In this document: piece by piece, positions 11,485 to 23,126 of the stretch
How positions within the stretch are numbered: position 1 is the stretch's first letter
How the letters are laid out: every line of letters begins with the position of its first letter
Assembly (NCBI GenBank): GCA_018058245.1
Contig: JAGPCC010000007.1
Span: 1-44,830 of the forward strand
From: Verrucomicrobiales bacterium
GTDB taxonomy: Bacteria; Verrucomicrobiota; Verrucomicrobiia; Verrucomicrobiales; DEV007
Length of the DNA: 44,830 nt
Direction of reading: 5' to 3'
Notes under the pieces: model-generated
What the model was told of the DNA's origin: nothing
What the model saw: only the letters and a program-made list of their open reading frames with translations
The model's database searches: none
Position numbers and translations under genes: made by a program

Positions 11485-12876
11485 CTAAATAATCAACTCC
11501 GGAATGGCATTCCCGCCGAACTGAGAAAGCTGTTTGTAACGACCTGCGTGAAAGTAGGTGAGCTTGTTGTCTTCCAGTCCGAGTTGATTCAGCATCGTCA
11601 CATGCAGATCGCGAATCGGATGGACACATTCCACCGCTTTGCCGCCCACTTCATCGGTAGCACCGACGATTCCGGGTTTGATACCTCCGCCGGCCAACAA
11701 CATCGTCATACCTTCAGCATTGTGACCTCGACCGAGAGAATAGACCCCTCCCCGCTTGTTGTTGTCCGGGGTGCGCCCGAACTCTCCTGTCCAGATCACG
11801 AGTGTTTCGTCGAGCATACCGCGATGTTTTAGATCTTTGATCAGAGCAGCCATTCCCTGATCGACGCTGCGAATGCGGGAGGAGTGACCTCGCTCGAGAT
11901 AGTCGTGACTATCCCACCCACCGGAGAAAATCTGCACAAACCGAACGCCTTTTTCCACCAACCGACGCGCCATGAGACACTGGCGACCGAAGGTCTCGGT
12001 TTCCTTTTTCCCGAGACCATACATGTCCTTGATATACTGTGGTTCGGCTTCAATATCGACCACGCCCGGCACCTCTGTCTGCATGCGGAACGCGAGCTCG
12101 TAATTCTCCATGCGGGCGGCCAGATCGGCATGCTGCGGATTGGTATCCGCGTGCTTTTGATTGAGAAACTGGAGTTCGTCGAGCGCACGGCGCTGGTGCT
12201 CGCGAGACTTGTAGGTCTGCGAACGGAGATCCAGAATCGGCGACCCTTGCGGCCGCAACGTCGTGCCCTGGTAGTGCGCCGGCAGGAACCCGTTGCTCCA
12301 GTTGCGCGATCCGCCCTGAGGTAGGGCCAGCTCGGTCATGACGACGTAACCGGGCAGATTTTGGTTCGCCGAACCGAGTCCGTAGGTCGCCCACGCGCCG
12401 ATGGCGGGATCACTGCCAAGACGGCTGCCGGTGTTCATGTGAAAGAGCGCTTCTGGATGATTCAAGGACTCGGCCTGGCAACCGCGATAGTTGCACAGCT
12501 CATCGGCCACTTCGGGATCGGCCAAATACTGCCACTGATCACTCATATCGAGCCCGTTCTGACCCACTTTGCGCGAACTAAAAGGACTACCAACGTAAAA
12601 TTTGAAACCCGTTTCGAGACCGGCAGTGAGTTTGGATTCCTTTTTGTGGAGTTCCGTGAGTTTCGGTTTCGGATCAAAGGTATCCATCTGACTGGGCCCG
12701 CCTTCCATGAACAACATGATGACTGCCTTGGCTTTGGATGGATGCATCGGCGGCTTCACTGAGAGCGGCGAGGGAGCATCAGAGGCAAGCAGGTCAGAGA
12801 AAGCGAGCGAACCGAGAGAAGTGCCTAGACCGTAGAGAAAATCGCGGCGGGTGGCGGAGGGAGAGAAGGGGTTCAT
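11485..12876 (-). CDS. DUF1501 family Tat-exported protein
   Basis: This 463-residue protein begins with a Tat-like signal (TRRDFLYGLGTSLGSLAFSDLLA). DUF1501 hallmarks follow: AVIMLFMEGGPSQMDTFDPKP near residue 50, then later ALPQGG, GVRFVQIFSGGWDSHD, LVIWTGEFGRTP and HPIRDLHVTMLNQLGLE. The fold is related to alkaline-phosphatase/sulfatase-like hydrolases, and in Planctomycetes and Verrucomicrobia the gene is usually coupled to a DUF1549/DUF1553 cytochrome gene, as here. The biochemical role is not established; an exported enzyme acting on organic substrates is assumed. The partner gene is upstream on the same strand, but the gap between them is abnormally long because it holds a four-helix-bundle remnant. 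Confidence 0.92.
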   Translation of the reverse strand: MNPFSPSATRRDFLYGLGTSLGSLAFSDLLASDAPSPLSVKPPMHPSKAKAVIMLFMEGGPSQMDTFDPKPKLTELHKKESKLTAGLETGFKFYVGSPFSSRKVGQNGLDMSDQWQYLADPEVADELCNYRGCQAESLNHPEALFHMNTGSRLGSDPAIGAWATYGLGSANQNLPGYVVMTELALPQGGSRNWSNGFLPAHYQGTTLRPQGSPILDLRSQTYKSREHQRRALDELQFLNQKHADTNPQHADLAARMENYELAFRMQTEVPGVVDIEAEPQYIKDMYGLGKKETETFGRQCLMARRLVEKGVRFVQIFSGGWDSHDYLERGHSSRIRSVDQGMAALIKDLKHRGMLDETLVIWTGEFGRTPDNNKRGGVYSLGRGHNAEGMTMLLAGGGIKPGIVGATDEVGGKAVECVHPIRDLHVTMLNQLGLEDNKLTYFHAGRYKQLSQFGGNAIPELII

Positions 12877-12901
12877 TGGGGGGTAGGTGTGTTTGAATTT
12901 T

Positions 12902-13187
12902 GAATGGCGAACAAGGAATTTCGAATTTCGAAGGGTGTGGATGAGCGCCTAAGGAGGTTAAGGGAAGGGTTTAGAATCTCGAATTTCGAAGGGTTGATTA
13001 GAGACTTTTTTGGGCGGTTTGGATGCTTTTGACGAAGATGGAAATCAGCTCATTGCATTCTGGTAGAACTGAGACCGATTGTTCGGCGGGGATCATGGAT
13101 CGTTTCTTGATGATCTTTAACCACACCATCGACTCCCTGAGCTCCTTCAAGCTCACTTCAAAAATCGAAATTCCTTGTTCGCCATTC
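12902..13187. repeat. Element bounded by a perfect 23-bp inverted repeat, with internal direct repeats
   Basis: The 23 bases at 12902-12924 (starting GAATGGCGAACAAGG) recur exactly on the other strand at 13165-13187. A 16-bp direct repeat, TCGAATTTCGAAGGGT, occurs at 12921-12936 and again at 12979-12994, 58 bp apart. The right arm supplies the first codons of the four-helix-bundle remnant. Inverted ends around a small gene fragment suggest a decayed mobile or dispersed element. No transposase is present and no target-site duplication could be identified. Confidence 0.55.
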
Positions 13188-13192
13188 GCCAT
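12998..13192 (-). pseudogene. Remnant of a four-helix-bundle (23S rRNA IVP-like) protein gene
   Basis: This 64-residue frame reads SLKELRESMVWLKIIKKR, then LPECNELISIFVKSIQTA. That matches the C-terminal half of the four-helix-bundle family (the S23/intervening-sequence protein type, also related in fold to the Avd proteins of diversity-generating retroelements). In full members of about 120 residues, the segment KEA-x-ES-x-YWL is preceded by two further helices, which are missing here. The first dozen residues (MANGEQGISIFEV) are translated from the repeat arm instead. It starts 11 nt after the stop of the DUF1549/DUF1553 gene, with GGAGGA just before the ATG, so it may still be translated. 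Possibly a short functional variant, but truncation is more likely. Confidence 0.55.
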
Positions 13193-13203
13193 TCCTCCGT
13201 CCC

Positions 13204-16062
13204 TCAGTAAACATATACAAACTCATTCGAGTTAAACAGCAGAAGACACAGATCCGCCAACGCCCGCGTTTCTACCGAAATATCAGCCGGTTTCATGTCG
13301 GCTTGGTAGTTCTCAAAGGCGGGAAGGATTTCCTCATACTCGAACGTTTCCCCGGAGAACTCCTCCACAAGCGAACGGGTGATCTTCTCCGGGTAGCTCA
13401 CCACCTGCGGCTTCGCGCTGGCGTGATAGGCTGTCATCTCTTTTACGTAATTCTCCAGTCGCTCGATTTCCACAGCATCTGGGTTGCGTCCGAAGGCTAG
13501 GTGAAAGGCCCGCTGGATTTTTCCCTTCGCCTCCTTCCTTCCTTCCTTCTCCAACCGCGTTGCGAAAGCGATGGACCTGTCGGTCATCGTATCACTGTTG
13601 AGCAGCGTGAACGCCTGAGGCGAGACCGCCGCGCTTTCGCGCCCCTCGCAAGAATCATTCGGATTAGGTTGGTTAAACAATTCCAAAAATGGGTCGGCAA
13701 GCCCCCGCACCCGATAGGCATAGATAGTCCGGCGATTGCGTTGATCGGGTGTCGGATCCGGCTGGTAGGCCGGGGCGAGTGAAAATTGGATCATGCGAGG
13801 TTGCAGGGCCACCTCCATGTTGATTTCCGGATTAGCCGGCAGCCCACCGGAAATGGAATTGAGTTCGCCGGTGACGGTCAATAACGAATCACGCAGCTCT
13901 TCAGCAGTAAGTCGCCGAGCGGGAAAATAGGAAAGCAGATGATTGTTCGGGTCCTCGCTCGCGACAGCGCTGTACTCCGGATGCTGACCGGAACGACGAT
14001 AGGCCTCCGAGGTCATGATCAGGCGATGCAACCGTTTCATGGTCCAGCCATTTTCGACAAAATCTGCCGCCAACCAATCGAGTAATTCCGGATGAGTCGG
14101 CTTCTGCCCCTTCACGCCGAAGTTGTTCGGATTTCCAGCAATCGGATGGACAAAATGCTGTTGCCAAATGCGATTAACAATGGATCTCGCCGTCAGCGGA
14201 TTTCGCCCATCGGCGATCCATTGGGCCAGCCCGAGACGACGCCCTGCGACGGTCTCGGGAAGCGCGTAGGGATCTTTCTTGTTTGCGGTGGGTGACGGAA
14301 CTCCCAGCATGCTCAGAACCCCAGGGGTGACGGATTCCCCAGGCGCTTCGAGAGAACCACCCGTGAGGATGTTGCTCTCTATCGCTTGTTTGAGAACAAT
14401 CTGACTCGGAATACGCAGCTTCCGGGCATTGCCCGAGCCCTTTCGACTGCCATTGTAGACACTCTGCATCATCGGCTCGTAGCGCTCCAGGCGACGGGTC
14501 CAGATCCATTCATCCTGCTCGCGAACTTTGAGCTGGCCCTGCTCCGTGATGTCGAGGCCGACATGACGCGGCGGTTTCTTGTCATCGTCGAGATCCTTGC
14601 GATCCTCTTCGTTCAGATAAGGCAGATTGTGCTCGGTAAACCACGCTTTGGCGGCACTCTCCCGCTTCTTCACAAGAGCGTTCTTCTCGGCGACGGCAAA
14701 CGCCAGCATTCGCTCGACATGAGCCTTGCCTTCCGCAAAGTTGACTTGATTTTCCTCTTCGAGAAATGGCACCGGGCGCTCTGCCATCTGGGTACCAGCA
14801 AAAGTGGCATACATGCGATAATAATCACGCGTCGGGAGTGGATCGAACTTGTGGTCATGACACTTGAAGCACCTCATCGTCGTAGAGAGAAAGGTCTGCC
14901 CCACCGAGTTCACGACATCGTCGAGATAGAGTTGCCGCGCCTCCTCATCCTTCACCATCGCATTGTCCCAGGCACCCATACGGAGAAATCCCGTTGCGAG
15001 GAGCCATTCCGCTTCCTGCTCATTGTAGTTGCCGGCCAATCGGGCCGCTTGGACACCTGCCTCTCCCCCACCCTGCCGTTTTGTGACCGACGCATCTGCG
15101 AGTTCGTCGCCTGCCAGTTGTTCGATGACAAAGCGGTCATACGGTTTATCATCGTTGAAGGCCCGAATCACATAGTCCCGGTATCGCCAGGCGTTGGAAC
15201 GCTCGTAATCGTTTGACATTCCACCTGTATCCGCATAACGCGCAACATCGAGCCAGTGCTGCCCCCAACGCTCCCCATAGCGAGGGCTCGCAAGCAATCG
15301 ATCAAGGAGTGTCGACCAAGCAGATTCTTTATTCGACGCCCAATCTTTCTGAAACGTGGCGACTTCATCCGGAGTGGGAGGCAATCCGATGAGATCATAG
15401 GTCGCGCGACGAATGAGGGTGCGAGTGTCGGCCTCCGGCGCCGGAGTCATCGTCGCGTCAGCAAGTTTCGTATTCAGAAAGGCATCGATGGGATTCGGGC
15501 TGGTCGATTTCGGCACGCTCGGTTTTCTTACTGGGAGAAACGCCCAAATGTCCTCCGGTTGATAGCGCCGATAGGTCCAGTCATCGCCAAGACCGCCGCT
15601 GGTCTCCACGATGATCCCCTCTGCCGTCACTTTCCGTTTTGCTTCAGACTGACGAATCGCGAGTTGTTTTTCCTCGCTCGGCCACGGTGCCCCGGCATTG
15701 ATCCACTCCTCCACCATCCCGATCTGTTCACTGCTCAGTCTGTCGTTTTCCTTTGGCGGCATTTCAAAATCGGGATCGGACCACTTGATGGATTCGATCA
15801 GAAAACTCTTCTTTGTATCACCGGGCACCAGCACGTCGACACCAAAGGTCTCGCCACCCGCCAGCAACGACTCTCGCGTGAGCATATTGAACTTTCCCTT
15901 CACCTTTTCAGCGTCATCGCCATGGCAACCATTGCACTTTTCCGATAGCAAAGGCTGCACATAGAGCGTGAACAGGCGATCCCCCTCCGGGGAATCTTCA
16001 GCAAGGCACACACCAGAAAACACGGTGGTGAGGAGAAAGAAGAGTCGTAAGGTCAGTTTCAT
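13204..16062 (-). CDS. Cytochrome-anchored DUF1549/DUF1553 secreted protein
   Basis: This 952-residue protein starts at ATG 16062 with a signal peptide (MKLTLRLFFLLTTVFSGVCLA); the frame extends upstream to a GTG, but that part is not protein-like. The order is: a planctomycete-type cytochrome C domain with CNGCH (residues 43-47); DUF1549 with LIRRATYDLIGLPPTPDEV, YGERWGQHWLDVARYADTGG and the second haem-like motif FKCHDHKFDP; then DUF1553 with GLAQWIADGRNPLTARSIVNRIWQ, FGVKGQKPTHPELLDWLA and LTAEELRDSLL. The family is exported and presumably redox-active; its substrates are unknown. It is normally cotranscribed with DUF1501, which is the next intact gene downstream. Confidence 0.94.
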   Translation of the reverse strand: MKLTLRLFFLLTTVFSGVCLAEDSPEGDRLFTLYVQPLLSEKCNGCHGDDAEKVKGKFNMLTRESLLAGGETFGVDVLVPGDTKKSFLIESIKWSDPDFEMPPKENDRLSSEQIGMVEEWINAGAPWPSEEKQLAIRQSEAKRKVTAEGIIVETSGGLGDDWTYRRYQPEDIWAFLPVRKPSVPKSTSPNPIDAFLNTKLADATMTPAPEADTRTLIRRATYDLIGLPPTPDEVATFQKDWASNKESAWSTLLDRLLASPRYGERWGQHWLDVARYADTGGMSNDYERSNAWRYRDYVIRAFNDDKPYDRFVIEQLAGDELADASVTKRQGGGEAGVQAARLAGNYNEQEAEWLLATGFLRMGAWDNAMVKDEEARQLYLDDVVNSVGQTFLSTTMRCFKCHDHKFDPLPTRDYYRMYATFAGTQMAERPVPFLEEENQVNFAEGKAHVERMLAFAVAEKNALVKKRESAAKAWFTEHNLPYLNEEDRKDLDDDKKPPRHVGLDITEQGQLKVREQDEWIWTRRLERYEPMMQSVYNGSRKGSGNARKLRIPSQIVLKQAIESNILTGGSLEAPGESVTPGVLSMLGVPSPTANKKDPYALPETVAGRRLGLAQWIADGRNPLTARSIVNRIWQQHFVHPIAGNPNNFGVKGQKPTHPELLDWLAADFVENGWTMKRLHRLIMTSEAYRRSGQHPEYSAVASEDPNNHLLSYFPARRLTAEELRDSLLTVTGELNSISGGLPANPEINMEVALQPRMIQFSLAPAYQPDPTPDQRNRRTIYAYRVRGLADPFLELFNQPNPNDSCEGRESAAVSPQAFTLLNSDTMTDRSIAFATRLEKEGRKEAKGKIQRAFHLAFGRNPDAVEIERLENYVKEMTAYHASAKPQVVSYPEKITRSLVEEFSGETFEYEEILPAFENYQADMKPADISVETRALADLCLLLFNSNEFVYVY

Positions 16063-16745
16063 CGTTCGAAAAACAGAGTTCACCAGGCAAATGGCGATTC
16101 CTGGAAAAAGGTTAACAGGAAATGAAATTTTTTTTGGTGGGCGGGAGAGGAATGGGGAGAAACCGAAAAGCGAGACCACCCCAAAAGGCTGAAAAAGAAG
16201 TGAAGATCGCAGTCGAAAACGATCGCAGGCAGTGACCTTTCCCGTTTACCCGACTGCCCGGATGTTCTTTCGACTCCGCTCGGCCCTTTGGACTGTCCGA
16301 AGGGCGAGTTATGTCGTTCCGCTCCAATCATCCGCGTGGGCGACTACAGCCCCAAGCGGTGCCTCACGAGTCAGCGGCACCATAGCCGCCGCGGTGGTGG
16401 CTTGCTGCTGGTGCGAGAGTTGCGTTTGAGTGCAAAACGTTCTTCAGCCTCGACTTTCTCCAACCTCTCCCGAAAGGCAGCATGCAACGCTAAGAATGCG
16501 AAGGCCCGCTTACCGATCGCAACAGGATCAGTTATGGCCAGCTTACTAGGGTGCGCTTTTGGTTGGATGAGACTGCCCCCCAATCGACCAAAACTTATAT
16601 TTTCCGTAGATATTTCTCGTAGTTAGCATAAGTGAAATCTTTCGATTTTTTTCTGTGTACGGGCGCTGAAAAGTTACCCGGAAGTCCACAAAAGACTGCA
16701 TCGAGCTATTGCGACGGGGTCCGGGCTGCGCTACGGATGAGGTCG
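16063..16745. other. Long intergenic region before the PEP-CTERM protein gene
   Basis: This is the longest gap in the window. Several short open frames exist on both strands, but none has protein-like composition. At 16358-16381, GGTGCC and GGCACC form a 6-bp stem around a 12-nt loop, followed by a GC-rich near-palindrome (GCCGCCGCGG) at about 16386. This block (roughly 16330-16420) reads like a dispersed intergenic repeat. The last 60 bp before 16632 is AT-rich (TATATTTTCC, TAGATATTTC) and is a plausible promoter zone for the giant gene. Confidence 0.35.
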
Positions 16746-19700
16746 ATGAAACCCTCTTGCTTCTCCGGCCTGACCCTCTTCCGGGCCGTTTTCCTCTTAT
16801 TTGCCCTTACCGTTCTTGCCGTCCTCTCCGTCGCGCCGGGCCTGCGGGCCTTGGATCGTATCAAGGTGAACAACACGATCAATCTGAATTCCAGCTTGAG
16901 TTGGACCGGCGCCGTTCCGGACCGCTCCAACATGGCGGTGTGGACCAATGTGGTCACAGGGGCCAACAACTCGCTGCTCGGGGGGAATATGACGTGGCTG
17001 GGCATACGAATCGCGGATCCCGGAGGGCTTGTCACCATCGGTCCCGGCGGCACACTCACGCTCGGACCCGGCGCTGCGGGTACCAGCATCGATCTGAGCG
17101 CCGCGACCCAGGATCTCACGATCCAGTCAGGGCTGACGCTCAAGCCCGCCGTCGGCCAACTCTGGAACATCGCAGCCGGTCGTACCCTCACTCTCGAAAA
17201 CGGTCTTTTCACGCGAGGGACAGGTTCCACACTCAATATCCAGGGGGCCGGCAGTGTTGTCACGACAAACATCCTTAACGACCCGATCTCCGGACTCATC
17301 GGCACCTGGGCAACGATCGGCACGGGAACAACGACCCGTTTTGCCATGGTCGGCGGCAGTAATACGATCGTCGCCTACACCGGAGGAACGGCGGCAGGAA
17401 CGGCGGCAGCGGTCACAGATACGACTGGATTGATCAATTACGACGTAGCCGCGATCGGGGCGATCGGCGCGGGAGCGTCTTTCCACACGCTCCGCTATAC
17501 GGGGGCCACGGGAACGATCTCAGGGAATTTCACCGGAAACGGTATTCTTAACTCCGGCACAGGCGCTCTCACTTTCAGCGGCAATATTGCCATTGGTAAC
17601 AGCCGCGAGCTGGTCCTCACCAATGGCGACAGCTCGAGCGCGCGTGATCTCCTCTTCAGTGGCATTATCAGTGACTCGTCTAGCGGGGTCGCTGGCCTGA
17701 CAAAGGCTGGCCTCGGAGCGATCACCCTATCGGGAGCGAACACTTACAATGGGGTGACCCAGATCTCTCGGGGGAAAATCATCCTCACGAGTAGCGGCAC
17801 GCTCGGCTCCAGTGCGGGCGGTACACGCATCGGGCTCAGTGGCCGCCTCACTCTCGCCGGAGGGGTGACCTCATCGGAATCTCTCTTTCTCGACGATGCC
17901 ACCAACGCCTTCGGCGGTGGTGCCCTCGTCGAGAACCTCGGAACCAATACCCTCACGGGTGCGATTCGCCTGAGCGACAGCGTGCGCTGGCAGAGCGGGG
18001 GCACCCAGATCAATGTGAGCGGCGGCATCTCGACGACCAACGGAAATGGCGGGTCCTCTTTTGTCGTGCAGGCAGCAACGATCATGAACATCACCGGGAA
18101 GCCGATCTCTATAGGCGGGGGTTCACTCTACATGGACAATGCAGGTAGAACCATTATCCTTGGCGTGGCGGGCAGTACCTATGGCAGCAACTCTCTGTTT
18201 GCAGGGACGCTGCAGGCAGGCGTGGAGAATGCTTTTTCAACGACGGCCACCGTAAATTTCAGCGTTGGATATAGCGCCTTTGCCTCCATTCTAAATTTGA
18301 ATGGTTTCAACCAGGGTGTCGGTGGAATCAACACGTCGATCTATTCTGTACACAGTGCCTATGACCGTGTCATCACCAGTTCTGCGCCAGCCACTCTCAC
18401 AGCCGGTCTCAACAACGGCTCAACCACGTTTGACGGAAGGTTCAGCGATGCGGTTTCGTTGATCAAAGTCGGCACCGGCACGCTCAACCTGACGGGTGCC
18501 AGCACGACCTCGGGGAATTTCACCGTAAATGCCGGAACTTTGAATCTGAATTTCGGGCGTGCTTCTGCTTCCCAAAGCGGAGCTGGATCGGTCAGTGACT
18601 TCCTTCCCTCCGCTGCTCCGCTCACCCTCGGGGGCGGCACCTTTCAGCTGACGGGTCGGAACAACGGGACCGCCACTACTCTCACCGGGGCAAGTTGGGC
18701 CGCCGCGCAACCAATCATCACGGTCTCCTCCACTGCAGGGCTGGCACCGGGACAGCTCGTTTCCCACGCCAACTTACCGGGCGGAGCCTATGTCGTGAGT
18801 GTTTTAAGTAGCACGCAGTTTATCATTAACTTGCTCCCGACCGTCGCGGGATCGAGCGCAACCATCTCAGCGACGGCAAACAGCGTTACGACGTCGCAGA
18901 CCTTTGCAGGTCTCATCCTCAACCCTGGGGCGTCGTCCGTGACCGTCACGATTCCCTCGAATGGCTCGGATGGCACCGTCCTGAATCTCGGTGCGATCAC
19001 GAGAGACTCGGGAGCGACTGTGAACTTCACCCTGCCTTCGGGAACACAGAATGCCACCAACGGCATCACTACGGAGACCCTCAATGGGAACGGTGGGATC
19101 CTCGGCGGTTGGGCGAGGGTGGGCAACCACTGGGCGATCAACAGCACCAATACGACCGGTGGCAACATCGCCGCGCTGGCGACCTACACCGACGTGAATC
19201 GTCTCGGGGGCACCCTCCTCTCCGCCGCCACGGCCAATGTCCGCCTCGTCGATGGTGGAGCGAGCGGAAGTGTCACGCCGACCTCGTCCGGAACCACCGA
19301 TATCAACACTCTACTCCAAAGTGCGACCGGCGGCACCGCGACCTACGATCCGGGCAGCACCGACGTCCTGCGTCTCGGATCCTCGGGCGGTATCCTCGTC
19401 GCGAGCAACGCGGGGGCTCTCACGATCGGAGCCGCCGTCAATGACGGCTTCCTCACCGCCGGTGGCGCCACTAACACCGTCGGCAACCTTTACCTCACGA
19501 ACAACCACACGAGCAACCTCCTGACGGTCAACTCCACCGTCGCTGACAATGGAACCGGCCTCGTCGGTGTCACCACTTCCGGCCCCGGCATCCTCGTCCT
19601 CACGGGGACAAACACCTACACTGGCCGCACTACTGTCGGAGGAGGTACCCTGCGGATTTCGAGCGAGCAAAACCTCGGCGGCAACCCTCTGAGTTTCTCC

Positions 19701-22700
19701 GCTGAGCAACTTACCCTCGCGGGAGGCACTCTCAACGCCACCGCCTCTTTTGCCATAGATGACGCCAATCGCGGCATCACCCTCGCCGCAGCGGGCGGGG
19801 TTCTCTCGGTCAATAGTGGTTTCACCCTGACGATCGCAAATGTCATCACAGGTTCCGGCAATCTCACCCTGTCCGGAGCGGGCACCGTCGCGCTCCAGGC
19901 CGCGAACACTCATACCGGCACGACTTTTGCCAACGCCGGCACCCTCGCACTCGGCCATGTCGATGCCCTGCAAAACAGCACTCTCACCACTGCCACTGCT
20001 TCGAATGTCACCTTCACCCTAGCGGGAGCAAACACCTATCGTCTCGGTGGCCTCGCCGGCAACGACACCGTCGCACTCGGAGGAAACTCGCTGCGACTCG
20101 GAAGCAATGACGAGACCACGATCTTCAGTGGTAGCCTCACGGGCACCGGCGGTTTCATAAAAGAAGGCAATGGCACCCTCAACCTCATCACTGCGAACAC
20201 CCACAGCGGCGACACTCGTATCGAGGGAGGCATGATCGTCCTCGCCCACGCCAATGCTTTGCAAAACAGTACCCTCGATACCGGTGACGCGGGGATCCAG
20301 AGCGCCAACTTCACTCTCGCCGAGGGGACCACTTACCAAATCGGCGGGCTCAAGGGAAGCGCCGATCTCGACCTCGCGCTCTCCCACCTCAGCGTCGGCG
20401 GGAACAATCAGACCACTACTTTTTCCGGCGTTCTACAAGGTGCCTTCAACAACAATCTCACCAAAGTAGGGACTGGCACCCTCACCCTCGCAGGCAACAA
20501 CACCTACCTCGGTACTACAACCGTGAGCGCCGGTAGCCTCATCCTTCTAGGCACCAATCTCTCTCGTATGATTGTGGAGAACGGAGCAAATCTCGGCGGC
20601 GAAGGCAGCACGCGGGACAGTCTGATTTTCCAAGGCAGCACCCACATCCTCGAGATCAACGCCACGACAGCGTCCGCGCTCGGCTCGACCGACGGAGGAG
20701 GCCTCGATGTGAGCGCTCTCAATGTCGGCGGTTTTACGATCAACGTCACCGGATCACCGGTCGGTGCCTCTCCCGTGAAAGTCCTCACCTACGGCAAGGC
20801 AGGATTCATCGGGGACGTAAACCGCTTCATCCTCGGCACCCACACCGCAAGCGTCCGCGGTGCAGGCGGATTCACCAACAACGGCCTCGACGCCATCGTC
20901 ATTGATCTCGGGTATGTAACAAATACCTGGGTCGGTGGCGACGGCACTAATCCGACATTCTGGGACGTGGCGACCACTTCGAACTGGAACAACGCCAAGG
21001 ACGCCGTCTTCCAAAACGGCGACGATGTCCTCTTTGCCGACGGTGCTTTAAATCTCACTCCTGTCTTGCAAGCAAACATTACTGCTGGCAGCATCACCTT
21101 CAGCAACACCACCGGGACGGACTACACCCTGAGCTCGGCGGCGAGTCAGTCGTTGACGATTCTCGGCAATTTGCTCTTCAACGGATCAGGCAACGTCACG
21201 ATCGAGAGTATCCTTGGCGGATCCGCTACCCTCACCCAGTCAGGCACGGGCACGACCACTTTGACGGCGGCGAATACCTTCACCGGCCGGACCACGATCA
21301 CTTCGGGAACTCTTCGTCTCAGCGACGAAGCCAGTCTCGGCACGGCACCCGCGACGTTCACGGCTGAGCATCTTTTCCTCGACGGGGTGAACGCCATTTT
21401 TGATGCCATTGCAAGTTTTCTCATCGATGATGGCAACCGCGGCATCACTCTTGGGGCTGGCGGCGGCAGCTTCCGGGTCAATCCGTCCGTTACTCTCACC
21501 CTCGCCAATCCTGTCGCTGGCACCGGTGCTCTGCGCAAACTCGGCACCGGGACCCTCATCCTCACCGGCCCCAATACTTACACCGGACTCACCTCGGTGA
21601 ACGAGGGCATCCTCGAGCTGAACCGTTCCGGCGGCAATGCCATCGTTGGTGACGGAATCGCCGGGAGCAACGACATCCAAGTCAATACGGGCGCTACCCT
21701 GCGACTCGGGGCGGCTGATCAGATCCCGGATGACGGAACCGTCTTTCTCAATGGAGGCACCTGGAACCTCAATGGTCAGAGCGAGACGATCCGAAACCTT
21801 AATGCAATCGTCGCCACCACTGCCCCTGCGCTCACCCTCGGCACCGGTGCAGTCCTCACCCTCAACCGGATCGACTGGGACAACACCGGGGCCAATGTCA
21901 CCAGCAACATCACCGGCGGGACAGTCCGTTTTGTCGCAAACGGTGCCACCCAACCGATCTTCGAAACCAACTACGTCGGTACGGTCAACGTGGCCTCGAC
22001 CGTGCAGATCGACGCTACCTCTCTGACGCTCCGCGCCGCCACCTACGGAACCACAATATCCGGCCAAATCACCGGTCCCGGAAAACTCATCTACGACCCA
22101 AGCGGTGGAGCAGGAGGCATCGTCTTGACCAACGGGACGAACAACTACACGGGAGGCACCCAATGGACCTCGAACAGCGGTGTCAATGGTGCCTGGAACC
22201 TCTTCACCGTCAACGCGAGCGGAGCCCTCGGCAGTGGTGAGGTGACGATCCAAGGCGGCAACCAAAACACTTGGATTTCGACCTTTTCGGGAGCGCCGAG
22301 CGCCTTCATTTTTGCGGGCGTTACCTCCCAGACGAATGATTTTCGACTCACCGGAGCCGCAACGATTTCCGCCGGCGGTGCCGATGACAGTACCGCGACG
22401 GGTGACCGGGTCACCCTCTCCGGAGGAATGGATCTCGACGCTTATGAGCTCTTCCTCCGAGGCCGGGGCACCGGCACGATCAGCGGGGAAATCAGCGGCA
22501 GTGGCGGTCTCAGCAAGATCGATCACCCCGGCACCTGGATACTCAGCGGAACCAACGTCTACACTGGTGATACCACCGTCAGCGCCGGGACTCTCGTCGT
22601 GAATGGCGATCAGTCCGCCGCCACCGGGGCCGTGACCGTCGCCACCGGAGCTACCCTCGGCGGCAATGGCATCATCGGAGGCGACACCAACGTCAACGGA

Positions 22701-23126
22701 ACCCTCAGCACCGGTCCCCTCGCCACGACCGGTTCCGTAGGCACTCTCGACTTCAACGGTAACAATCTCACCTTCGGCGACGGCAGTGCCTGGCTCGTTG
22801 ATCTTGTCCAGGGAGTGACGGAGAGCTCCGACGCGATCGCCACCGATGTTCTCACGATCGGGCCCAACGCGACGCTCAATTTCCAGCTGAGCGGAACGTT
22901 CAACGGGGATGAACGCTACACCCTTGCCACCTACTCCAGCCTGAATGGCACCTTTTCCAATTACGGAACCTCGGGAGTCTACACGATCGGTGGGAACGAC
23001 TTCGTCCTGAACTATGGCACCAACACGCTCACTCTTTCCGCCATCCCGGAACCCGGAACTCTCGGACTTTTGGGTCTGACACTGGGGGGCTATTTCCTCC
23101 GCCGGTTCCGCAAGCGCCGAGTCTGA
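16746..23126 (+). CDS. Giant autotransporter-type beta-strand repeat protein with PEP-CTERM sorting signal
   Basis: The protein has about 2126 residues from ATG 16746, where GAGG lies 3 nt upstream and the signal peptide follows (FRAVFLLFALTVLAVLSVAP). ATGs at 16737 and 16632 are also in frame. The body is Gly/Thr/Asn/Ser-rich and built of many copies of the autotransporter-associated beta-strand repeat, such as KVGTGTLTLAGNNTYLGTTT, TGPNTYTGLTSVNEG and LSGTNVYTGDTTVSAGTLVV, which should form a long beta-helix. The last residues are the tripartite PEP-CTERM signal: IPEPGTLGLLGLTLGG, a hydrophobic stretch, then the basic RRFRKRRV. Exosortase would cleave it during export, giving a surface or released matrix protein. 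There is no C-terminal autotransporter barrel. The ligand is unknown. Confidence 0.93.
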   Translation: MKPSCFSGLTLFRAVFLLFALTVLAVLSVAPGLRALDRIKVNNTINLNSSLSWTGAVPDRSNMAVWTNVVTGANNSLLGGNMTWLGIRIADPGGLVTIGPGGTLTLGPGAAGTSIDLSAATQDLTIQSGLTLKPAVGQLWNIAAGRTLTLENGLFTRGTGSTLNIQGAGSVVTTNILNDPISGLIGTWATIGTGTTTRFAMVGGSNTIVAYTGGTAAGTAAAVTDTTGLINYDVAAIGAIGAGASFHTLRYTGATGTISGNFTGNGILNSGTGALTFSGNIAIGNSRELVLTNGDSSSARDLLFSGIISDSSSGVAGLTKAGLGAITLSGANTYNGVTQISRGKIILTSSGTLGSSAGGTRIGLSGRLTLAGGVTSSESLFLDDATNAFGGGALVENLGTNTLTGAIRLSDSVRWQSGGTQINVSGGISTTNGNGGSSFVVQAATIMNITGKPISIGGGSLYMDNAGRTIILGVAGSTYGSNSLFAGTLQAGVENAFSTTATVNFSVGYSAFASILNLNGFNQGVGGINTSIYSVHSAYDRVITSSAPATLTAGLNNGSTTFDGRFSDAVSLIKVGTGTLNLTGASTTSGNFTVNAGTLNLNFGRASASQSGAGSVSDFLPSAAPLTLGGGTFQLTGRNNGTATTLTGASWAAAQPIITVSSTAGLAPGQLVSHANLPGGAYVVSVLSSTQFIINLLPTVAGSSATISATANSVTTSQTFAGLILNPGASSVTVTIPSNGSDGTVLNLGAITRDSGATVNFTLPSGTQNATNGITTETLNGNGGILGGWARVGNHWAINSTNTTGGNIAALATYTDVNRLGGTLLSAATANVRLVDGGASGSVTPTSSGTTDINTLLQSATGGTATYDPGSTDVLRLGSSGGILVASNAGALTIGAAVNDGFLTAGGATNTVGNLYLTNNHTSNLLTVNSTVADNGTGLVGVTTSGPGILVLTGTNTYTGRTTVGGGTLRISSEQNLGGNPLSFSAEQLTLAGGTLNATASFAIDDANRGITLAAAGGVLSVNSGFTLTIANVITGSGNLTLSGAGTVALQAANTHTGTTFANAGTLALGHVDALQNSTLTTATASNVTFTLAGANTYRLGGLAGNDTVALGGNSLRLGSNDETTIFSGSLTGTGGFIKEGNGTLNLITANTHSGDTRIEGGMIVLAHANALQNSTLDTGDAGIQSANFTLAEGTTYQIGGLKGSADLDLALSHLSVGGNNQTTTFSGVLQGAFNNNLTKVGTGTLTLAGNNTYLGTTTVSAGSLILLGTNLSRMIVENGANLGGEGSTRDSLIFQGSTHILEINATTASALGSTDGGGLDVSALNVGGFTINVTGSPVGASPVKVLTYGKAGFIGDVNRFILGTHTASVRGAGGFTNNGLDAIVIDLGYVTNTWVGGDGTNPTFWDVATTSNWNNAKDAVFQNGDDVLFADGALNLTPVLQANITAGSITFSNTTGTDYTLSSAASQSLTILGNLLFNGSGNVTIESILGGSATLTQSGTGTTTLTAANTFTGRTTITSGTLRLSDEASLGTAPATFTAEHLFLDGVNAIFDAIASFLIDDGNRGITLGAGGGSFRVNPSVTLTLANPVAGTGALRKLGTGTLILTGPNTYTGLTSVNEGILELNRSGGNAIVGDGIAGSNDIQVNTGATLRLGAADQIPDDGTVFLNGGTWNLNGQSETIRNLNAIVATTAPALTLGTGAVLTLNRIDWDNTGANVTSNITGGTVRFVANGATQPIFETNYVGTVNVASTVQIDATSLTLRAATYGTTISGQITGPGKLIYDPSGGAGGIVLTNGTNNYTGGTQWTSNSGVNGAWNLFTVNASGALGSGEVTIQGGNQNTWISTFSGAPSAFIFAGVTSQTNDFRLTGAATISAGGADDSTATGDRVTLSGGMDLDAYELFLRGRGTGTISGEISGSGGLSKIDHPGTWILSGTNVYTGDTTVSAGTLVVNGDQSAATGAVTVATGATLGGNGIIGGDTNVNGTLSTGPLATTGSVGTLDFNGNNLTFGDGSAWLVDLVQGVTESSDAIATDVLTIGPNATLNFQLSGTFNGDERYTLATYSSLNGTFSNYGTSGVYTIGGNDFVLNYGTNTLTLSAIPEPGTLGLLGLTLGGYFLRRFRKRRV
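19622..21520 (+). repeat. Long diverged internal duplications in the PEP-CTERM protein gene
   Basis: Two repeat families are longer than the basic 30-odd-residue motif. One of about 80 residues starts near 19622 and recurs near 21284; both copies share the order GRTT, GTLR, LG, F-A-EQ/EH-L, ID-D-NRGITL and TLT-AN. A second of about 95 residues starts near 19905 and recurs near 20205; both share HANALQNS or HVDALQNS, then a TY-x-GGL, then TT-FSG. They indicate past segmental duplication in the gene. Confidence 0.6.

Follow-up and report, generated by a model that had tools for sequence, protein, structure and literature searches.

The feature at positions 12895 to 13194 of the window (the whole 44,830-nucleotide stretch of Verrucomicrobiales DNA analysed here) is quite probably a decayed miniature mobile element, in which mirrored arrays of heptamers surround a four-helix-bundle (4HB; TIGR02436/PF05635) gene, the arrays are likely to be the ends that the element's own protein recognises, and the catalyst would be supplied from elsewhere. 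The element measures 300 bp from outer arm to outer arm, as defined by the pairing of the arms, and is read on the minus strand. It lies between two operon genes on the same strand, both identified by profile matches: a PSCyt1-DUF1549-DUF1553 gene upstream (13204 to 16179) and a DUF1501 gene downstream (11485 to 12876).

Within the element, a 64-amino-acid ORF (12998 to 13192, minus strand) begins 11 nucleotides past the stop codon of the DUF1549/DUF1553 gene and upstream of the DUF1501 gene. It matches TIGR02436 at 30 bits (cut-off 24) and PF05635 at 20.4 bits, under the cut-off of 33.8. The TIGR02436 match covers profile positions 55 to 108 of 109 and the ORF therefore represents the C-terminal half of the gene. 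The window copy is a remnant without the N-terminal half. This is the position and content given in a preliminary description of the locus, prepared from the nucleotide sequence alone, which the coordinates and the profile match bear out.

Each arm comprises six heptamers. The upstream arm (13153 to 13194), read on the minus strand from 13194 to 13153, consists of GAATGGC, GAATGGC, GAACAAG, GAATTTC, GATTTTT and GAAGTGA, each starting with GA. The downstream arm (12895 to 12936), inverted with respect to the first and read on the plus strand, consists of GAATTTT, GAATGGC, GAACAAG, GAATTTC, GAATTTC and GAAGGGT, each starting with GAA. An extra copy of three heptamers (GAATCTC, GAATTTC and GAAGGGT) is found inside the element at 12974 to 12994 on the plus strand. 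The preliminary description had listed a perfect 23-bp inverted repeat and a separate direct repeat. Both are present, and the heptamer arrays explain both. The inverted repeat (12902 to 12924 and 13165 to 13187) is the stretch where three successive heptamers of the two arms agree, and forms the core of 39-nucleotide arms that are 87% complementary; the direct repeat (12916 to 12936 and 12974 to 12994; 95% identical, spacing 58) is the internal half-copy. The start codon of the ORF lies inside the upstream arm, so that its first codons are indeed taken from a repeat arm, as had been proposed.

Among 128 elements with clear arms (see below) the median length is 475 nucleotides, which leaves little room for anything besides the 4HB gene. 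By this measure the window element has lost about a third of its length. No family other than PF05635/TIGR02436 was matched inside it, and no recognisable transposase is found there. The copy, having lost the N-terminal half of its gene, is likely to be immobile unless helped. An exact 15-mer of the arm repeat, with at most one mismatch allowed, occurs at only two places in the genome, both in the window element. The preliminary description had counted on many copies of the exact repeat as support. The sequence is unique to this copy, yet the interpretation as an element stands: each element carries its own heptamer, and an exact-repeat search would therefore refute it wrongly. Elsewhere in the window, on the plus strand (16632 to 23126), is a gene for a 2164-amino-acid protein that, as read from its translation, has repeated T/G/N-rich stretches and a PEP-CTERM-like C-terminus.

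Comparison with other members of the genus indicates that the site can be empty. The window DUF1501 gene was searched in 33 genomes and the best 15 of 40 places (at least 76% identity) were read; 14 of these (all except L294) contain the DUF1549-DUF1501 junction. It is empty in nine of the 14, with a gap of 21 to 47 nucleotides, including the closest (G026, DUF1501 94% identical, gap 43 nucleotides). The preliminary description had named an empty site in a close strain as support; in these relatives the site is empty. A 4HB element occupies two of the 14 junctions: that of the window (327 nucleotides) and that of G023 (487 nucleotides), where the gene is full-length. Three further junctions (L289, L292 and L295, in G006, G007 and G031) carry instead a gene of a different family, GxxExxY. 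One of the short gaps (47 nucleotides, L291 in G012) contains GAATATC and GAATTTT, a pair of heptamers resembling those of the window copy and perhaps the trace of a lost element.

A second site, between pheS and pheT, is similarly variable in the genus. A 4HB element is present in nine genomes (two of them, G021 and G001, counted from other loci), while in seven the gap is 90 nucleotides or less (21 to 30 in five of these). The remaining junctions hold gene-less arrays or other inserts; eight of the 30 PheS loci (L103, L112, L122 and L125 to L129) were unreadable at the junction. In several species gene-less GGTAAAA arrays, of the type found between cysD and cysN, lie by a GC palindrome before pheT (L104 to L107 and L110), and in L101 the word TAGCTGTT is kept after pheS. 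These arrays and the L101 word are probably gene-less derivatives or relics. A different insert is found at the same junction in L113 (G006) and L117 (G004), with gaps of 649 and 746 nucleotides and inverted ends tatggagtgcggtggctcgacaccgctttt.

The mirrored layout is widespread in the gene family. The window genome contains seven PF05635 matches, six of them above the cut-off, and TIGR02436 genes occur in 43 of 56 genomes of the order, with up to nine per genome. From about 160 such places we took 90 as loci (30, and 60 more). The arm test was run on 96 loci, that of the window among them: the upstream flank of each gene was compared with the downstream flank in reverse complement, and a score of at least 28 was taken as an arm. 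We left out L015 (the same locus as L003), L009 (broken frame, under the Pfam cut-off) and flanks under 60 to 90 nucleotides; L133 (the same locus as L012) was left out of the comparisons of arm with protein but kept in the arm counts and in the median length. Mirrored arms were found at 72 of the 93 4HB loci with usable flanks in the order, compared with none of 176 control windows shifted by 900 nucleotides. The window copy scores 38. True flank pairs have a median score of 36 and pairs assembled from different loci a median of 18.

For the set from other bacteria, 80 of 573 relatives were taken and 79 were scored (L202, with a short flank, was left out). Here mirrored arms were present at 56 of 79 4HB loci and in two of 146 shifted control windows. 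When the 99th percentile of mismatched flanks is used as the limit, mirrored similarity exceeds it at 43 of 91 loci in the order and 46 of 79 elsewhere, and direct, unmirrored similarity at only seven of 91 and seven of 79. By record titles and our own assignment, these loci include Chloroflexota, Bacteroidota, Bacillota, Pseudomonadota, Acidobacteriota, Patescibacteria, Omnitrophota, Gemmatimonadota, Elusimicrobiota, Desulfobacterota, SAR324 and Poribacteria, which, with Verrucomicrobiota and Cyanobacteriota, makes 14 phyla in all. On cyanobacterial plasmids 10 of 11 4HB loci have mirrored arms, and of 31 viral loci 17 were scored and 13 of these reach 28 or more. Clear mirrored arms are lacking at 21 of 93 loci in the order and 23 of 79 elsewhere. 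In one locus (L249) both arrays point the same way, unlike the mirrored layout. A locus has the same inverted-arm and period scores whichever strand is read. In L030 compared with L031 the gene seemed to be inverted between the arms, but this was an artefact of loci not oriented to match strand; among loci oriented to the gene strand it disappears and there is no flipped pair.

The repeat unit has a preferred length. Period 7 and its double stand out, with a mean best match of 18.3 of 28 near the gene compared with 10.9 farther off; period 8 is slightly raised near the gene and other periods little. The best period over 131 loci with arms is 7 in 104, 8 in 20 and another value in seven. Period-7 arms have a median length of 33 nucleotides (4.7 units) and period-8 arms 34.5 nucleotides (4.3 units). 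Period 8 clusters weakly by protein (8 pairs compared with 3.06 expected; 52 of 2,000 shuffles as high).

The heptamer itself differs from element to element (for example, TAGCTTT, GGATCTT, GTAAAAG, AGTTTCA or CAGGAGT). Read inward, however, period-7 units share one constant position at which a purine precedes G (90%), and their information content is 2.69 bits compared with 1.98 +/- 0.10 when columns are permuted (maximum 2.16 in 50 permutations), the 104 elements behind this figure being not all independent. The window unit, of the GAATTTC type, retains the G but not the AG order. Similarity of unit follows similarity of protein, although weakly. In a test with unit profiles, restricted to different sites, rho is 0.10 (3 of 1,000 permutations as high; 1 of 1,000 when only pairs between phyla are considered), and a version using alignment scores is weak as well (rho 0.09). 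The overall effect is slight and becomes strong only where the proteins are similar: the median unit similarity is 0.67 in 33 pairs with similar proteins compared with 0.36 to 0.40 for dissimilar ones.

Filled and empty sites were also compared in cyanobacterial plasmids. One lineage, with CAGGAGT units, occurs at three unrelated plasmid places: in Trichormus/Scytonema near TrbI/VirB10 genes, in Nostoc and in Aulosira. In the Trichormus variabilis plasmid NC_007412.1 the 4HB gene occupies 60378 to 60743. The copies are 77.8 to 82.5% identical in DNA over 416 to 427 bp, which corresponds approximately to the element alone. Site 1 is empty in plasmids that are 97.5 to 97.9% identical around it, while sites 2 and 3, together with a cas10-cmr3 and an integrase-operon site, have empty counterparts at approximately 90 to 93% identity. 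Overall, empty counterparts were found for plasmid sites 1 to 3, 5 and 6 and for a site neighbouring L256. In addition, the Nostoc plasmid pNPM1 carries a 4HB gene interrupted by a gene-less insert of approximately 180 bp. Its interior is unrelated to the full element, but its arms match the arms of that element at 38 of 40 and 37 of 38 positions. Matches to the insert occur at 101 places, spread over 43 plasmid records, some of the places being only the arms of full elements; at least 80% of the insert is present in 28 plasmid records. One copy splits rarA, which is intact in two plasmids approximately 95% identical. Since gene-less inserts share the ends of the full element, the arms seem to be sufficient for movement, with something acting in trans. 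The suggestion in the preliminary description that the gene family moves as a compact unit bounded by repeats is supported by the empty relatives, the copies at unrelated sites and the gene-less derivative. The evidence for movement is this comparison of filled and empty sites between plasmids and genomes; no movement event was observed.

The junctions are less uniform. At site 1 the target word TA, up to GTAAT, is possibly doubled. The word TTCTA at site 2 was considered as a target duplication and dropped, since the same end, GAATTCTAG, is found at the unrelated site 3; because the two sites end alike, this word could belong to the element itself. Neither of the two gene-less inserts for which an empty site is known has a target duplication, so that duplication is inconsistent across sites. 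Of four gene-less copies, three have ATAA directly after the right end and one has ATCA; in both copies with a known empty site ATAA belongs to the target. ATAA was not seen in this position at full elements. At plasmid sites 4 (L256), 5 and 6 the flanks leave the exact junction unfixed.

The 4HB gene points the same way as its operon. In 56 loci at 12 shared sites, the gene upstream is always in sense with it and the gene downstream is so in 49, the rest being probably antisense shadow ORFs. In annotated plasmid loci with two neighbours, both are in sense in 11 of 11 cases, several of which are the same site. As read from the protein ends, many sites separate genes for subunits of the same complex (for example, pheS-pheT, cysD-cysN, gyrB-gyrA, nuoI-nuoJ, sucC-sucD, livG-livF and exbB-exbD). 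This setting is likely to result from a need for host transcription together with the loss of harmful insertions. On cyanobacterial plasmids, 4HB elements are also present within type III-B (cas10-cmr3) and type I-D (cas6-cas4) operons (L247, L249 and L250), and the cas10-cmr3 site is filled in PCC 7003 and has an empty counterpart in PCC 7002. A total of 18 4HB genes in cas operons has been reported (PMC3936711). These genes may be insertions of the heptamer-array element.

The heptamer arrays are likely to be the ends of the element, and the 4HB protein probably recognises them, binding being a prediction. In the mechanism that we propose, the gene would probably be transcribed from the host operon, the protein would bind its own array, perhaps with one heptamer per subunit, and strand transfer would be carried out in trans by a candidate enzyme, perhaps a Y1 (HUH) transposase. 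We know of no catalytic fold in the 4HB family. Period-7 arms contain 4.7 units and a solved 4HB relative is an assembly of five four-helix bundles, according to its title in a reference list; together these suggest one unit per subunit, although period 8 fits less well.

A host Y1 transposase (of the IS200/IS605 or REP-associated type) might also move the arms by itself, with the 4HB protein as a passenger or helper. We regard this as possible but doubtful. Y1 elements insert beside a fixed tetranucleotide, and both the absence of duplication at the two gene-less copies and the target-derived ATAA after the right end would agree with such an enzyme. Presence of Y1_Tnp and of 4HB genes is associated over the 56 genomes (41/2/7/6; Fisher p 0.001; rho 0.55 for counts), although this may reflect species that are poor in every mobile element: of the six genomes with neither, five (G009, G011, G014, G017 and G020) also have no GxxExxY gene, the sixth (G035) being outside that search. 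Moreover, two genomes with 4HB genes have no Y1 match and one of these (G036) is 99% complete. Recognition by Y1 elements relies on hairpins and their fixed guide sequences, which leaves the element-specific heptamers unexplained. Movement by reverse transcription, as for Avd with the reverse transcriptase of diversity-generating retroelements, appears to us improbable. PF05635 resembles Avd, according to the part of PMC10053308 consulted, the counts of 4HB and RVT_1 matches correlate (rho 0.31, p 0.02) and the invariable sense orientation of the upstream neighbour is what RNA-based insertion would permit. That orientation is, however, equally explained by a need for host transcription; presence of the two is not clearly associated (Fisher p 0.12), and an RVT_1 match is absent in six of 18 genomes with at least five 4HB genes, including G039, a single contig, and G053, which is 99% complete.

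Two other explanations dispense with mobility. The arms could form an RNA stem, cut from the operon transcript by RNase III, with pairing kept for an RNA function. The intervening sequence (IVS) of the Coxiella 23S rRNA is a precedent, carrying the same gene and, in the available text, a 28-bp terminal stem cleaved by RNase III in vitro (PMC4990558). In 72 arm pairs, however, the mismatches show no excess of G.U in the sense RNA (51 of G.U type compared with 99 of A.C type), and gene-less copies at many sites argue for a function as ends, so that we think this explanation unlikely. It is very improbable that the gene is an ordinary, vertically kept operon gene beside slippage-prone repeats. 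A vertical history would suit sites S0 (cysD-cysN) and S4 (nuoI-nuoJ), where the 4HB gene forms one clade over several species with one change on the tree. Other sites hold several lineages: at least three (S1) and at least four (S3) changes are needed on the starred branches, bearing in mind that three changes at one site may equal one gain and two losses. The window junction is empty in most relatives and gene-less copies exist; for the plasmid lineage, with its unrelated sites and empty counterparts, vertical descent is refuted. On the same tree, the 4HB genes at the pheS-pheT site form two clades with two arm types (TAGC type and GGATCTT type), AGTTTCA-type arms belong to one clade found at both S1 and S3, and GTTCTT-type arms to one clade at S3 and S8.

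As a mobile element with array ends, the 4HB element shares features with several known systems. It resembles the 23S rRNA IVS of Leptospira and Coxiella in its protein family (S23/IVP), similar size and terminal inverted repeats. The window remnant has a TIGR02436 match above the cut-off and terminal inverted repeats, and it has intact relatives. The setting differs: the elements described here lie between protein genes in many phyla, whereas the IVS interrupts the 23S rRNA, from which RNase III removes it. Six conserved 23S motifs were looked for, and no locus examined contained a pair of them, or a single motif of more than 14 bases. The Coxiella IVS, as far as the text consulted goes, is 428 nucleotides long, has the same gene and terminal inverted repeats, and carries before the gene tandem heptamers GACAGAT that vary in number between strains (PMC4990558). 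Mobility had already been guessed by earlier authors cited there; in the same part of that text the heptamers are not named as ends, and neither empty-site nor gene-less-derivative evidence is given.

Heptamers have also been described independently of the gene. Two Xanthomonas genomes are reported to contain heptamer arrays, 186 in one and 183 in the other, with close convergent pairs numbering 70 and 75, mostly intergenic, and the Xanthomonas and Nostoc heptamers GGGAATC and GGGGA(C/T)T are reported as possible quadruplex sequences; that text contains no mention of S23 or four helix (PMC4692102). A search of 149 genomes from the family of Pseudoxanthomonas found 4HB genes in 64. Thirty of 32 loci were scored (L371 and L375, which are short, were left out) and, by our own reading, 17 of the 30 have arms of GGGANNN units (such as GGGATTC, GGGAATC or GGGACTC), GGGAATC itself being found in four. 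The other loci carry different heptamers. Both the Coxiella IVS and the Xanthomonas heptamer repeats would fit as members of the same element family.

Among mobile elements, the cyanobacterial derivative is like a MITE in being a gene-less, multicopy form with the ends of a larger coding element, but the ends are tandem arrays that differ by element and the coding partner has no known transposase; the window copy is a gene remnant and not a MITE. Gene-less copies adjoin a short target without duplication, perhaps in the manner of IS200/IS605 and REP/RAYT (Y1) elements; unlike in these, there is no Y1 gene inside and the ends are arrays instead of fixed hairpins. The absence of any recognisable transposase also separates the element from insertion sequences with DDE, Y1, serine or tyrosine transposases. 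To our knowledge, element-specific tandem-array ends without a recognisable transposase are unlike any known insertion sequence. The protein shares a related four-helix-bundle fold with Avd of diversity-generating retroelements (PMC10053308, in part), but RVT_1 is not found on the window contig (C56), the only match in the genome being on C32. A literature search, in which preprints and most subscription journals were out of reach, gave no paper linking a 4HB gene with array ends. We consider the array ends, their variability and their spread to be new, and the 23S IVS to be a special case known earlier.

A second family has the same layout with a different unit. GxxExxY (TIGR04256) genes occur in 19 of 32 genomes of the genus and are flanked by mirrored arrays of 10-nucleotide units (period-10 match 14.8 near the gene compared with 10.8 far from it). 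Of loci L376 to L405, 27 of 30 were scored (the short loci L388, L390 and L405 were left out); mirrored flanks exceed the 95th percentile of mismatched flanks in 22 of the 27 and direct flanks in five. The shared layout with another unit length suggests a wider class. Such a class would consist of miniature transposons with array ends, found throughout bacteria, in which the protein family sets the unit length (7, less often 8, for 4HB and 10 for GxxExxY), a ring-shaped protein takes one unit per subunit, end and protein drift together, and the IVS, the 4HB genes of cas operons and the heptamers of Xanthomonas and Nostoc are members or debris. We hold the case for and against this broad proposal to be about evenly balanced. 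If it is true, one element would explain the genes annotated as 'four helix bundle protein' or 'S23 ribosomal protein' that are scattered between operon genes, as well as the 23S IVS, the excess of heptamers in some genomes and the 4HB genes among cas genes. Plasmid sites known to be filled or empty would offer a direct test of the old question of whether IVS elements move, and how.

The association of arrays with the gene can also be followed along a chromosome. In 400 kb of G039, which contains five 4HB ORFs, a cut-off of 21 of 28 gives three period-7 arrays, all less than 400 nucleotides from a 4HB ORF (one only just, at 386 nucleotides). The stricter cut-off of 22 of 28 gives two, one of them within 400 nucleotides, and of three period-8 arrays one is near a 4HB ORF. 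In the same genome, four 4HB ORFs lie inside 12 kb of one chromosome (G039:C1:2570898-2582340).
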